Assembly (NCBI RefSeq): GCF_029267215.1
Contig: NZ_JARIDH010000066.1
Coordinates: 1-52,644, forward strand
Direction: 5' to 3'
Length of the DNA stretch: 52,644 bases
DNA from: Clostridium sp.
GTDB taxonomy: Bacteria > Bacillota > Clostridia > Clostridiales > Clostridiaceae
Shown: positions 17,899-36,547 of the stretch, piece after piece
Position numbering within the stretch: the first letter of the stretch is position 1
How the letters are laid out: every line of letters begins with the position of its first letter
Translations under genes and position numbers: made by a program
The notes under the pieces: model-generated
Seen by the model: only the letters and a program-made list of their open reading frames with translations
The model's database searches: none
Told to the model about the DNA's origin: nothing

Positions 17899-18408
17899 CT
17901 AATTCTTTATAACCGCAGGTATTCCAACAGCTGTTTTTCCTTCTGGAACATCTTTTAAAACCACAGCATTAGCACCTACTTTAGAATTATCTCCTAATTC
18001 TATAGGCCCTAAAACCTTAGCACCACAGCCAATTATAACATTGTCTCCCACTGTCGGATGCCTTTTTCCTTTATGCTTTCCTGTTCCTCCCAAAGTAACA
18101 CCATGATATATTGTCACATTATCACCAACTTCTGCTGTTTCTCCAATTACTACACCCATTCCATGATCTATAAATAAGCCTTTTCCAATCTTAGCACCTG
18201 GATGTATTTCTATTCCTGTAAAAAATCTTCCAAGTTGAGAAACTAATCTTGCTAAAAAGAATCTCTTCCACCTATATAATTTATTTGCTATTCTATAAAA
18301 AATTAAAACATGAATATTTGGATAAAGCATTAATACTTCTAACTTTGTTCTAGCAGCTGGATCATTTTTCATAACATTTTCTATATCATATTTAAGTCTT
18401 TCAAACAA
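17899..18408 (-). CDS. cysE: serine O-acetyltransferase
   Basis: Makes O-acetylserine from serine and acetyl-CoA, the substrate of CysK. Seen: a left-handed beta-helix of hexapeptide repeats ([20 protein letters not shown], then [20 protein letters not shown]), with the catalytic-site His residues, and GNNSKVGA-like repeats ([12 protein letters not shown]) at the end. The longest frame begins at GTG 18417, but this overlaps GGAG. TTG 18408 lies eight bases after it and gives the usual [10 protein letters not shown] start and about 169 aa, the short CysE form. It lies 10-20 bp after cysK and shares its T-box. Confidence 0.94.
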
Positions 18409-18427
18409 ACTTTTCACTCCTATTTAA

Positions 18428-19327
18428 TTACTCAAATAGTCCTGTTGAGAAATATTTTTCTCCCCCATCAGGAGCTATTACAACAATCTTTTTATCCTTA
18501 CCTAATTTCTCTCTTATTTCTTTTGCTCCAACTAAGGCTGCCCCTGAAGATATTCCAACTAATATACCTTCTTTTTGTGAGAATTCCTTAGCCATCTTAA
18601 ATGCATCTTCATTTGTAACCTTAATTATTTCATCAACAACAGTTTCATCATATATCTTTGGTATAAATCCTGCCCCAATTCCTTGAATTTTATGACTTCC
18701 TGATTGTTCACCTGATAATACTGCTGAAGTGCTAGGTTCAACAGCAACCACTTTAATATTAGGGTTTATCTCTTTTAATCTCTTACCTATACCACTTATT
18801 GTTCCACCAGTTCCAACCCCCGCTACAAAAACATCAACCTCTTTAACATCTTTTATTATTTCCTCTGCTGTTGTTTCATAATGTTTCTTAGGATTTGCTT
18901 TATTTAAAAATTGTTGTGGCATAAAGTATCCTTTTTCCTTAACTAACCTTTCAGCTTCTAAAATAGCTCCTTTCATCCCCTTACTTCCTTCAGTCAATAT
19001 AATTTCAGCTCCATAAGCCTTTATCATATCTATTCTTTCTTTACTCATAGTTTCAGGCATAGTTAATATAACTTTATACCCTTTAAATTTCCCAATCATA
19101 GAAATAGCAATCCCTGTATTTCCACTAGTGGGTTCAACTATTACTCCCCCTTCTTTTAATAGCCCTTCTTTTTCAGCTTCTTCAATCATTCCTAAAGCTG
19201 CCCTATCTTTTATGCTTCCACCAGGATTAAATTTCTCTAACTTAACAAAAACATTTTTATCCAAACTTTTTTCCGCTTCTAATATTGGTGTATTTCCTAT
19301 TAAAGCTAAAACATTTTTAAAAACCAT
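18428..19327 (-). CDS. cysK: cysteine synthase A (O-acetylserine sulfhydrylase)
   Basis: PLP enzyme that makes cysteine from O-acetylserine and sulfide. Seen: the Lys in PGGSIKDRAALGMI that binds PLP, the substrate loop EPTSGNTGIAI, the PLP phosphate-binding GVGTGGTISGIG and the C-terminal APDGGEKYFSTGLFE. 299 aa is the usual length. It is the first gene of cysK-cysE. Transcription should depend on uncharged tRNA-Cys through the T-box just upstream. Confidence 0.97.
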   Translation of the reverse strand: MVFKNVLALIGNTPILEAEKSLDKNVFVKLEKFNPGGSIKDRAALGMIEEAEKEGLLKEGGVIVEPTSGNTGIAISMIGKFKGYKVILTMPETMSKERIDMIKAYGAEIILTEGSKGMKGAILEAERLVKEKGYFMPQQFLNKANPKKHYETTAEEIIKDVKEVDVFVAGVGTGGTISGIGKRLKEINPNIKVVAVEPSTSAVLSGEQSGSHKIQGIGAGFIPKIYDETVVDEIIKVTNEDAFKMAKEFSQKEGILVGISSGAALVGAKEIREKLGKDKKIVVIAPDGGEKYFSTGLFE

Positions 19328-19667: not shown

Positions 19668-20939
19668 CTAATCTGTATGCTTTTTCTTAAATTTTTTCTT
19701 TAAGTTGTTTGGAATTAATTCATCAACTATATCATGAATCAAAACTATTCCAACTAATTTTTCTTCATAATCAACAACTGGAATAGATATTAAATCATAC
19801 TTAGTTGATTTTTCTATTGCATCTTCTATAGTACTATCTATATTAACGCTTATGGAAGAAGTATGCATAATTTCCTTAAGTCTATCATCATATTCATTCA
19901 TTATTAAATCTCTTAAAGTAACAACTCCTTTTAACCTATCTTCCTCATCAGTTATGTAAACATAATACATAACTTCCTCATCGGCATTTAACTCTCTTAA
20001 AAGCTCTGTTGTTTCTTTTACTGTAAGATCTAAATTAAATGATATGAAATCTTTATTCATTATACTTCCTACTGATTCATGGGAATATCCCATAAGTTCC
20101 TTAACTTCTTTTGCATCCTCATTTTCTAAAGCAATAAGAACCTTTTCTCTTTCCTCTTCATCAAGTTCGTCTATAATATCTGCAATCTCATCATTTGGAA
20201 TATTTTCAAAAAGTTCAGCTGTCTGTGAATGAGAAAGCCCCTTTATAATACTGCTTTGAACCTCAGGTTCAATTTCTTCTAAAGTATCTGCTGCTAAGTC
20301 CTCATTTAAACTATCAAAGACTTTTTTTCTATTAGTAGCATCTAATTCTTCTAATATATCAGCTAAATCTGCTGGGTGAAGTTTTTGTAATTTTTTATAG
20401 GGTATAGCTAGTTTTAAATTTTCATTTATCATTTCTAAAGACTCAACATCTTCCCACATAATAACTTTTTCTTGGAATTTTTCTTTAAATACCTTAGCTA
20501 ATATCTTACCTAATGTCTCCATTCCTTTTCTTCTAAACTTAACTATTTTTCCAGTTTCAACTGCTATTACTCTAAATTCCCCAGCAATTTTTACAATTCT
20601 TAAATCATCAACTTTTACAACTTTCTTTCCATTTATATCTACTATTTTTCTATCTAATAAATTCTGTGATAATAAATAACTATAATTTCTAGGTAAAATC
20701 TCTCTACTTCCTCTTATTTGTATTTTTATTTTACCATTATCCTTTTGATAAAAGTCTATGCTCTTAAATTCATAGTCAAATATACTACCATCTCTTTTAA
20801 CCTTGTATCCTATTATTCTTGGATACCCTTCTTCTGTGGTTACATAAACATCCTTTAATATTCCCATTACTTCATTGAATTCATCATATATTTTCCTGTT
20901 TATTATGTTACTGTAAAGAAACATTGTTAACTTATTCAT
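19668..20939 (-). CDS. soluble MgtE-N/CBS-domain protein (no transport domain)
   Basis: A 423 aa cytosolic protein built like the intracellular part of the Mg2+ channel MgtE but without its membrane helices. Seen: a PRC-barrel-like N-terminus (about 1-160), an MgtE-N superhelix (about 175-285; LQKLHPADLADILEELD, FENIPNDEIADIIDELD) and a CBS pair (about 290-415; GSIMNKDFISFN, VVTLRDLIM, ISIPVVDYEEKLVGIVLIHD). In MgtE these domains bind Mg2+ and gate the pore. A regulatory role tied to Mg2+ is therefore inferred, not shown. It is preceded by an attenuator-like leader and ATG 20939 has a strong GGAGGAGG site. The protein ends in a Lys-rich tail. Confidence 0.85.
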   Translation of the reverse strand: MNKLTMFLYSNIINRKIYDEFNEVMGILKDVYVTTEEGYPRIIGYKVKRDGSIFDYEFKSIDFYQKDNGKIKIQIRGSREILPRNYSYLLSQNLLDRKIVDINGKKVVKVDDLRIVKIAGEFRVIAVETGKIVKFRRKGMETLGKILAKVFKEKFQEKVIMWEDVESLEMINENLKLAIPYKKLQKLHPADLADILEELDATNRKKVFDSLNEDLAADTLEEIEPEVQSSIIKGLSHSQTAELFENIPNDEIADIIDELDEEEREKVLIALENEDAKEVKELMGYSHESVGSIMNKDFISFNLDLTVKETTELLRELNADEEVMYYVYITDEEDRLKGVVTLRDLIMNEYDDRLKEIMHTSSISVNIDSTIEDAIEKSTKYDLISIPVVDYEEKLVGIVLIHDIVDELIPNNLKKKFKKKHTD

Positions 20940-20990
20940 TTTACCTCCTCCTTTTAATCCTAAAAATAAATTTTAAAATTAATTTAAATA

Positions 20991-21098
20991 TTAAAAAAAG
21001 GAGAATCCATTAAGTTTTCTAAATGGAATTTTCACTCCCTCTTTTTTAATATATTCAACTTTTCCTTGGCACCTATCTTCTCGAGGGCTATCTTCCAT
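20991..21098 (-). CDS. putative 35 aa leader peptide upstream of the MgtE-N/CBS gene
   Basis: ATG at 21096-21098 follows the ribosome-site-like GGTGGTG by about nine bases and opens a 35-codon frame ending at TAA 20991-20993. The N-terminus MEDSPREDR is acidic and contains Pro; the middle is Lys-rich and the end is FSFF. The start codon lies inside one arm of a predicted antiterminator, and the stop lies at the end of the terminator T-run. This places its translation exactly where it could choose between the two RNA folds. It may equally be a chance frame within a structured aptamer. No homologue is known to me. Confidence 0.4.
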   Translation of the reverse strand: MEDSPREDRCQGKVEYIKKEGVKIPFRKLNGFSFF

Positions 21099-21102
21099 TT
21101 AG
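20993..21102 (-). promoter_or_regulatory. transcription attenuator leader of the MgtE-N/CBS gene
   Basis: Two exclusive folds are visible on the minus strand. Terminator: GGAG..ATTCCATT pairs with AATGGAT..CTCC, followed by TTTTTTT (20993-21038). Antiterminator or aptamer P1: CTAAATGGAA (plus 21093-21102) is a perfect 10 bp match to TTCCATTTAG (plus 21019-21028), reinforced by CCCTC (21083-21087) with GAGGG (21037-21041). The second strand of P1 is the 5' arm of the terminator. The enclosed core of about 40 bases does not match any riboswitch class I can recall, including the M-box. Confidence 0.62.
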
Positions 21103-21145
21103 TTTCACCACCTTTTTACAAAAAAATTATACAACTCTCTAATTT

Positions 21146-21173
21146 ATTATATTATATAAACTCTAAATTGCAA
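21146..21173 (-). promoter_or_regulatory. promoter of the MgtE-N/CBS leader
   Basis: Minus-strand TTGCAA (plus 21168-21173), a 16-base spacer and TATAAT (plus 21146-21151). It predicts a leader of about 200 bases. Confidence 0.65.
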
Positions 21174-21225: not shown

Positions 21226-21245
21226 CACTTTATCATGATAAAGTG
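21226..21245. promoter_or_regulatory. 20 bp perfect palindrome, candidate operator of the amino-acid ABC operon
   Basis: CACTTTATCATGATAAAGTG is its own reverse complement. It lies 28 bp before the ABC operon start, just after a TTGACT (21216-21221) that could be a -35, so a bound dimer would overlap the promoter. It has no loop and no T-run, so an operator is likelier than a terminator. The regulator is unknown. Confidence 0.6.
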
Positions 21246-36373: not shown

Positions 36374-36530
36374 ATAAAAAAAGCATATATAGCCAAGGCT
36401 ATATATGCTTTAAAATCAATTAAATATATGGTCTTTGGCTTCCCTACGTTGGCATTATCCAAATCAGGTAAAGGGTCAAGAAATTTTATTTCTACTCTCA
36501 GCCAGACACAACTGGCACCCCTAGCTTTTA
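36374..36530 (-). ncRNA. TPP riboswitch with terminator
   Basis: The minus strand holds the THI-box core: GGGGTGCC, then CTGAGA, then ACCCTTTACCTGAT and GGATAATGCCAACGTAGGGA. It ends in a 14 bp perfect hairpin (AAGCATATATAGCC and its complement, 36381-36410) followed by a T-run. Binding of thiamine pyrophosphate would favour termination before thiD. Confidence 0.96.
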
Positions 36531-36547
36531 TTTTTCTTTTCCTCCAA

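Follow-up and report, generated by a model that had tools for sequence, protein, structure and literature searches.

An acidic/proline leader peptide and a four-arm leader RNA as a candidate translational attenuator ahead of clostridial MgtE-related genes

Introduction

Leader-peptide attenuation is a known kind of control, as are leader peptides related to magnesium. Translational attenuators of the erm type have four segments, and a ribosome stalled on segment 1 frees the Shine-Dalgarno (SD) sequence. They differ from the leader described here in their drug-induced stalling and their peptides, and no drug gene is involved here. The concept of ribosome destabilisation reportedly goes back to Chadani 2017.

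In Salmonella, mgtQ is an ORF of eight codons with Asp2, Pro4 and Glu5, whose RNA forms the stems 1:2 and 3:4 or, alternatively, 2:3, with the ribosome-binding site (RBS) in 3:4 (PMC8092293). In the sections of that paper drawn on here, replacement of Asp2 and Glu5 lowers MgtB production, and the authors argue that ribosome stalling by one Pro alone is not known. The clostridial leader shares with mgtQ a short ORF with early acidic codons and the mutually exclusive 1:2/3:4 and 2:3 pairings with the RBS in 3:4; the gene downstream of mgtQ, mgtB, encodes a magnesium transporter. It differs in its setting. While mgtQ lies in the intergenic region between mgtC and mgtB and precedes a P-type ATPase, the gene in the window encodes a PRC/MgtE_N/CBS protein, and the leaders of relatives have 15-61 codons, precede MgtE_N/CBS, Nramp or MgtE genes and in some cases follow an M-box. 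By analogy, the window leader would work like mgtQ, but it is not filed as mgtQ, and common descent is not claimed.

MgtL, the leader peptide of the enteric transporter gene mgtA, has an EPDP motif that contains Glu2 and Asp4, and Pro at positions 3, 5, 7 and 9 (PMC11282234, PMC6460261); early drop-off of ribosomes on this motif is described for low Mg2+ (PMC11282234). In the part of PMC11282234 used here, which concerns EttA, YFP needed at least DPEE for a clear EttA dependence. Other models for MgtL invoke EF-P (PMC6460261) or TrmD and the Mg-dependent methylation of tRNA-Pro (PMC6335274), as far as the cited portions go. The clostridial leaders share the acidic/Pro start, here M-E-x-x-P, and a downstream gene related to magnesium. 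They seem to differ from MgtL in their output, which there is Rho-dependent termination and here, as the conserved element, SD sequestration; an mgtA-type P-type ATPase was not found downstream in the window (Pfam).

A third described element is the M-box riboswitch (RF00380). In C. acetobutylicum, according to Shin 2014, two Nramp-related proteins linked to M-boxes are Mg2+ transporters, and the legend of Figure S5 places M-boxes ahead of mgtE-nramp operons of Clostridia (PMC4072509). The same gene pair occurs in 22 of 110 relatives of the locus studied here, and the leader ORF goes without mention in the portion of that paper used here. The main text of a survey with uORF candidates (PMC8632094) does not mention mgtE or magnesium, and PMC12288461 and PMC3641672 deal, in their cited parts, with the Bacillus mgtE riboswitch and Salmonella mgtM/mgtP. 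Titles and abstracts of open-access papers, with most subscription papers and preprints outside this scope, yielded no description of a leader of this type ahead of mgtE, MgtE_N-CBS or Nramp genes in clostridia. As a variation on the known kinds of leader control, the clostridial family appears to be new, as do the signature of its peptide and the way it is stacked on the M-box.

Results and discussion

Layout of the locus

The window is a stretch of 52,644 nucleotides from Clostridium sp. (NZ_JARIDH010000066.1). All leader elements are on its minus strand, between a divergent plus-strand operon and a gene for a protein of 423 aa:

21274 onward, plus strand: divergent operon, first product a family 3 solute-binding protein (Pfam)
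21173..21146, minus strand: promoter-like site of the sigma-70 type, TTGCAA-16-TATAAT (consensus scan, 10/12 matches)
21114..21105, minus strand: SD of the leader ORF, AAGGTGGTGA (sequence)
21103..21082, minus strand: arm 1, start codon to codon 6, contains CCCTC; partner arm 2
21098..20991, minus strand: leader ORF of 35 codons, MEDSPREDRCQGKVEYIKKEGVKIPFRKLNGFSFF and stop (ORF list)
21053..21021, minus strand: arm 2, within the ORF, contains GAGGGAG; partner arm 1 or arm 3
21005..20991, minus strand: arm 3, anti-SD TTCTCCTTTTTTTAA; partner arm 2 or arm 4, the strand common to 2:3 and 3:4
20956..20943, minus strand: arm 4, SD region of the gene, TAAAAGGAGGAGGT (3:4 duplex)
20939..19668, minus strand: regulated gene, PRC-barrel, MgtE_N and two CBS domains, 423 aa (Pfam)

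The product carries the PRC-barrel at residues 5-77, MgtE_N at 187-287 and two CBS domains, and the MgtE transmembrane domain is absent from it (Pfam). The NCBIfam mgtE model covers residues 182-411 of the product only and stays under the family cut-off.

A preliminary description of this leader had proposed a transcription attenuator with its own promoter, a 35-codon frame beginning MEDSPREDR with a ribosome site, a start codon inside the antiterminator arm and mutually exclusive stems. The frame and its SD are present, and the start codon lies within arm 1, which pairs with arm 2. The promoter was recovered as a 10/12 match and is visibly shared in its arrangement by L002 and L003; since the same scan gave 19 promoter-like sites in 2.1 kb against 12.9 expected, this match by itself is weak. 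The observation as such is thus confirmed, and its interpretation is partly supported, as detailed below.

Conservation of the leader peptide

The sample of 110 loci combines 30 loci of a first search with 80 regions hand-picked from the listed homologue rows of a search with matches in 188 of 225 genomes; named copies of counted genomes (L031-L036) and two CBS-only loci (L037, L038) were left out beforehand. A frame with the start M-[E/D]-x-x-P lies ahead of the gene at 107 of the 110 loci and in 26 of 2200 simulated upstream regions of the same composition. This bears out the acidic/Pro leader peptide of the preliminary description, which had named a frame broken in relatives as a sign against it; the comparison did not refute the peptide on this point. 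The start is absent at L015, L118 (MESAEP) and L030, the last being a full mgtE gene and not a homologue over its whole length. Starts among relatives include MEGGP, MEGVP, MESGP, MEGDP, MEDGP, MENGP, MECGP and MDVGP, and among the named copies the leader is found in Clostridium tarantellae (L032, MEGVPQRRS), Sarcina ventriculi (L033, MEGVPVDIK) and Clostridium mediterraneense (L034, MEGVPQSYR). A purine-rich site, often GGTGGTG, precedes the leader ORFs of relatives. In the window, the acidic and Pro residues of the early codons are E2, D3, P5, E7 and D8.

Codon usage was counted in 106 distinct leaders. As these were preselected by M[ED]xxP, amino acids 2 and 5 are fixed, and the informative parts are therefore the third bases and the 107/110 only. 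Codon 2 is GAG in 54, GAA in 34, GAT in 11 and GAC in 7 leaders; codon 5 is CCT in 93, CCC in 10 and CCG in 3. CCA never occurs at codon 5, although 523 of the 1035 Pro codons counted in the downstream genes are CCA. Hence, part of the conservation at codon 5 may be due to RNA pairing, and the lack of CCA fits either pairing by arm 1 or a codon effect. A K-L-N motif is in frame in 49 of 73 cases and missing from 33 leaders, a result that is suggestive at most. We considered a peptide acting in trans, but residues after about codon 9 differ in sequence and length among 14 aligned leaders, which makes a folded peptide product unlikely.

A DNA pattern scan gave a match in 113 of 218 genomes. Among the matches listed, many lie just 5' of a homologue of the gene, and others recur elsewhere, e.g., GGTGAAGGAAGAACTATGGAAGATGG in G010, G136 and G138. 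The genus pattern, which detects only leaders with a fourth codon ending in C, has four other matches in the window's genome. At the class level, a homologue reached the cut-off in 17 of 291 genomes, so the claim does not extend to most Clostridia outside the order.

Two minor features of the leaders were noted. GGTCGG at codons 8-9 is conserved in leaders of the MENGP/MDNGP type, where a small hairpin with codons 4-6 is possible (GACCT...AGGTC; L096, L100, L103, L108 and L016). In family f2 (L021, L022, L024, L025 and L026), the leader ORF passes the gene start in a different frame, and a C-terminal stretch is common to some members (e.g., RGTAFALILPYAVLLP in L022).

Alternative pairing of four arms

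Pairing between arms was compared with 200 dinucleotide shuffles per leader, in 103 of the 107 leaders (the others exceeded length limits or had no detectable SD). The mutually exclusive stems of the preliminary description stand in this comparison. In the window, the 1:2 duplex reaches -21.0 kcal/mol (equalled by 0/200 shuffles), the 2:3 duplex -16.8 kcal/mol (1/200) and the 3:4 duplex -14.1 kcal/mol (10/200); the region 20940-21005 folds with -15.7 kcal/mol. Across the 103 leaders, 2:3 lies within the best 5% of shuffles in 91, 3:4 in 71 and 1:2 in 53, and 2:3 and 3:4 taken jointly do so in 96. Complementarity of the arms is kept despite differing sequences, as between GAGAAGGGAAA and TTTTCCTTCTC in L004 and between GCAGAAGAATA and TATTCTTCTGC in L017.

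Covariation was assessed in an alignment of 14 leaders from relatives with an M-box or Nramp arrangement, the window itself being excluded. For 2:3, 91.5% of the cells are paired and 19 cells have both sides changed, a number reached by 0/500 shuffles; these double changes are spread over 7 pairs, which 55/500 shuffles reach. For 3:4, 95.0% of the cells are paired and 4 cells have both sides changed (0/500), spread over 3 pairs (2/500). When the partner strand is slid, pairing falls to 43-60% for 2:3 and 53-65% for 3:4. Both stems covary by the cell counts. The structures were taken from L017, one of the 14, which biases the cells toward being paired, and kinship among the aligned leaders inflates the covarying-cell counts. 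The count of further pair types was not above shuffles (376/500 for 2:3, 211/500 for 3:4). Folding of the whole leader is unexceptional (z -1.38; 19/200 shuffles as good), and the significance rests on the specific arms and on comparison. In our model, these arms would form a switch acting on the SD of the gene.

Ribosome position and the proposed mechanism

Accessibility of the SD was modelled by masking a ribosome footprint of 31 nt in the partition function for 96 of the 107 leaders. The mean is 0.236 for the free RNA, rises to 0.349 when the ribosome sits at codons 3 and 5, and is 0.197 for a ribosome late in the ORF. The early value exceeds the late one by >0.1 in 43/96 leaders and falls below it by >0.1 in 4/96; the mean difference between early and late is +0.151, as against -0.05 to -0.08 in eight shuffled sets. 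Compared with the free RNA, the early ribosome raises accessibility by >0.1 in 32/96 leaders and lowers it in 2, the change being at most 0.1 in 62/96. For the window, a per-codon scan that covered 99 of the 107 leaders gives 0.00 for the free RNA, 0.51 with the ribosome at codon 2, 0.00 at codon 12 and 0.48 at codon 28. Here the ORF extends through arm 3, and the modelled ribosome at codon 28 covers this arm; the longer ORF and the reopened SD make the window ambiguous in this respect.

The preliminary description held that the direction of control could not be deduced. From the model, we propose a default OFF state and an early ribosome that favours ON. By default, arm 1 would pair with arm 2 and arm 3, the anti-SD, with the SD of the gene. 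Pausing within roughly the first eight codons, or repeated rounds of initiation and abortion there, would keep arm 1 covered by the ribosome and arm 2 free, and arm 2 would then capture arm 3 and expose the SD. Moving on, the ribosome would cover arm 2 and the SD would close again. The sensor would be the conserved acidic/Pro start, where ribosomes would become unstable or slow at low Mg2+, as proposed for MgtL and MgtQ, and repeated initiation would keep arm 1 covered and arm 2 free. We infer translation of the leader in the cell and Mg2+ as the signal, and the pause or abort in the early codons at low Mg2+ is suggested by analogy with the enteric leaders. The leader is probably a cis-acting, peptide-driven translational attenuator whose acidic/Pro start would sense low Mg2+. 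Against this mechanism, codons 1-5 of many leaders hold a single acidic residue and a single Pro, which is below the EPDP of MgtL, and the YFP and single-Pro statements on the enteric leaders point the same way. The small modelled effect of the early ribosome in 62/96 leaders, the second opening of the SD in the window, the 1:2 pairing that stands out in 53 of 103 leaders only, the weaker arms of paralog groups B and C and the loci that have no such leader also count against it.

Magnesium context

By pattern, an M-box lies 5' of the leader ORF, and hence ahead of the same gene, in 38 of the 110 loci. In 37 of these the leader has the M[ED]xxP start, with its start codon 137-380 nt past the matched aptamer core; the peptide leader is a separate element. 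On 20 chosen loci, Rfam found the M-box in 11/11 pattern-positive (100-150 bits) and 0/9 pattern-negative cases. Neither the window leader nor a search of the window's genome gave an RF00380 match. The leader has no Rfam match at gathering score; a hit to a known riboswitch class was what the preliminary description had set against its peptide reading. Relaxed thresholds gave two microRNA matches only, far under their gathering scores. An Nramp gene was likewise not found by a search of the window's genome (assembly 95.9% complete, 82 contigs), and the peptide leader, with neither element found, apparently has no such companion there.

An Nramp-like gene follows the gene at 22 of the 110 loci, 12 of which also have the M-box; elsewhere, and in the window too, the next genes are cysK-like or of other kinds. 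Three Nramp examples, two of them from paralogs, match PF01566 at 320-332 bits (Pfam). In the paralogs, an Nramp-like gene is next in nearly all cases. Group B (L130-L147) has acidic leader starts in 16/18, e.g., MDDYDTDK, MDDNDTDED, VDDHDTES and MEDDPEDK, and most of these keep the acidic residues with the early Pro absent. In group C (L150-L152, L154-L159), M-[ED]-x-x-P was read by eye in 7/9. Leaders of distant homologues, also read by eye, begin MDGDPA, MAGDPA, MQDDGGPG (two loci) and MDADSDDTD; such a leader was not seen in L015, L124 and L146-L148.

Full mgtE genes carry similar leaders. Reading upstream of the true mgtE of the window's genome, we located an SD, GGAGGTGGTG, and the leader MEGDPLSRRFGCNFKN... 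(MEGDPLSRR...), 158 nt upstream of the gene. The sister genome has MESVPPSRN... before mgtE, and a third congener has an M-box followed by MDSSWPKRS. By a fixed rule, an acidic uORF precedes 28 of 44 distinct mgtE loci and is missing from 16, compared with 30/1800 simulated upstream regions and 1/44 other window ORFs of at least 150 codons. L168 and L195 are one locus, which reduced 29/45 to 28/44, and L169 is included with its gene start not located, its uORF being probably due to chance. The arms were within the best 5% of shuffles in 18 (2:3), 12 (3:4) and 21 (jointly) of 27 mgtE leaders, one locus being present twice, and in 9, 3 and 8 of 17 leaders from groups B and C.

The leader is therefore not special to the window gene, to which the preliminary description had tied it, as in relatives it stands before many genes of the mgtE and MgtE_N-CBS-Nramp types. 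The MgtL-like logic which that description had suggested for a magnesium-related gene gains support from the peptide start, the arms and the mgtE leaders. The magnesium link is drawn from gene context, and Mg2+ sensing is proposed on that basis. Whether these leaders form a widespread clostridial family of MgtL/MgtQ-like peptides, independent of the enteric ones, is in our estimate evenly balanced. Such a family would sense low Mg2+ and open translation of MgtE, MgtE_N-CBS and Nramp-type genes, often behind an M-box, in which case a single mRNA would read Mg2+ twice, by RNA fold and then by ribosome, and alone in the window's genome. If so, Mg2+ sensing through ribosome stability would be a recurrent solution and not an enteric oddity, occurring also in a distant phylum, where the transporters differ and the peptide has a recognisable signature. 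Outside Gammaproteobacteria, the idea that acidic nascent chains serve as a metal sensor by destabilising the ribosome would become directly testable, as would the question why some lineages stack the leader on an M-box and others have it without a riboswitch.

Alternative explanations

The preliminary description read the leader as a transcription attenuator, with 2:3 and the following U7 as intrinsic terminator and 1:2 as antiterminator. The window does have a hairpin followed by seven U at arm 3, and an alternative 1:2 stem. Without pairing between the A-run and the U-run, however, the hairpin reaches -8.6 kcal/mol only; the U7 finds partners in the A-run in 2:3 and in AAAA of the SD region in 3:4. 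Of 103 leaders, 7 have a run of at least five U at arm 3, and in L002, whose gene product is 94% identical, the run reads TTTTCTT and is still complementary to arms 2 and 4. The consensus scan lists no terminator at this hairpin, which is weak evidence because the scan was restricted to simple stems with loops of 3-8. Moreover, with 1:2 formed, 3:4 would still hide the SD. The mark of an intrinsic-terminator attenuator, a GC hairpin with a U-run conserved among relatives, was not found. Given the low energy and the U-run that is not conserved, we rejected termination as the general mechanism; the rarity of the U-run makes SD sequestration, and hence translation initiation, the likely general output as judged from sequence. 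Terminator identity of the window hairpin is doubtful, termination may contribute to control in the window, and transcription attenuation as the main reading is quite unlikely. A leader that senses nothing, its uORF being a booster by translation coupling or re-initiation only, would agree with the ORF overlapping the gene start in 5/107 leaders (L021, L022, L024-L026, all of family f2). In the other 102, however, the stop lies 15-298 nt upstream, and alternative arms and covariation are unnecessary for coupling; this explanation is very unlikely.

SD sequestration as output leaves the nature of the sensor to be weighed. In an RNA-only sensor, a riboswitch or Mg-dependent fold, the start region would be the aptamer and the ORF incidental. 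Conserved nucleotides near the start, with T as third base of codon 3 and the missing CCA at codon 5, suggest RNA constraints of this kind. The third base of codon 2, however, is free while E or D is kept, and leaders of mgtE and paralogs keep the acid or acid/Pro with differing nucleotides (MDDYDTDK, MDSDPYSR, MEDDPEDK); Rfam gives no match at gathering score, and 38/110 relatives have a separate M-box. We consider this very unlikely. A peptide attenuator could also respond to another signal that slows Pro or acidic codons, such as prolyl-tRNA, m1G37 of tRNA-Pro (TrmD, Mg-dependent), EF-P or ABC-F. Pro5 is present in 107/110 loci, as CCT or CCC in 104/107, and models based on Pro codons, EF-P and TrmD have been put forward for MgtL in the cited portions of PMC6460261 and PMC6335274. 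Yet the early Pro is missing from most group B and some mgtE leaders, which keep their acids (MDDYDTDK, MECDGHSC, MEDDDSSMD), and in the groups examined the genes belong to a magnesium context. Another signal is thus rather unlikely, and a peptide start that responds to low Mg2+ is the reading we prefer.

Neighbouring elements

Several elements near the leader or elsewhere in the window were observed in passing. A perfect palindrome of 20 nt, CACTTTATCATGATAAAGTG, at 21226-21245 immediately 5' of the divergent transporter operon (21274 onward, plus strand) is kept as an imperfect copy in L002 and is a candidate repressor operator. On the minus strand, a T-box leader (RF00230, 19370-19608) lies 3' of the MgtE_N/CBS gene, ahead of genes that resemble cysK (19327..18428) and cysE (18417..17899) by eye; among 20 loci scanned, the T-box also occurs in L002-L008, L079 and L085. 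A TPP riboswitch (RF00059) is located at 36424-36532, minus strand. In relatives, a predicted protein of about 240 aa with an N-terminal hydrophobic stretch (e.g., KKIALYLSVIMITYIITSVYF in L087) is often encoded next after the gene or the Nramp gene, as in L075, L085, L087, L096 and others.
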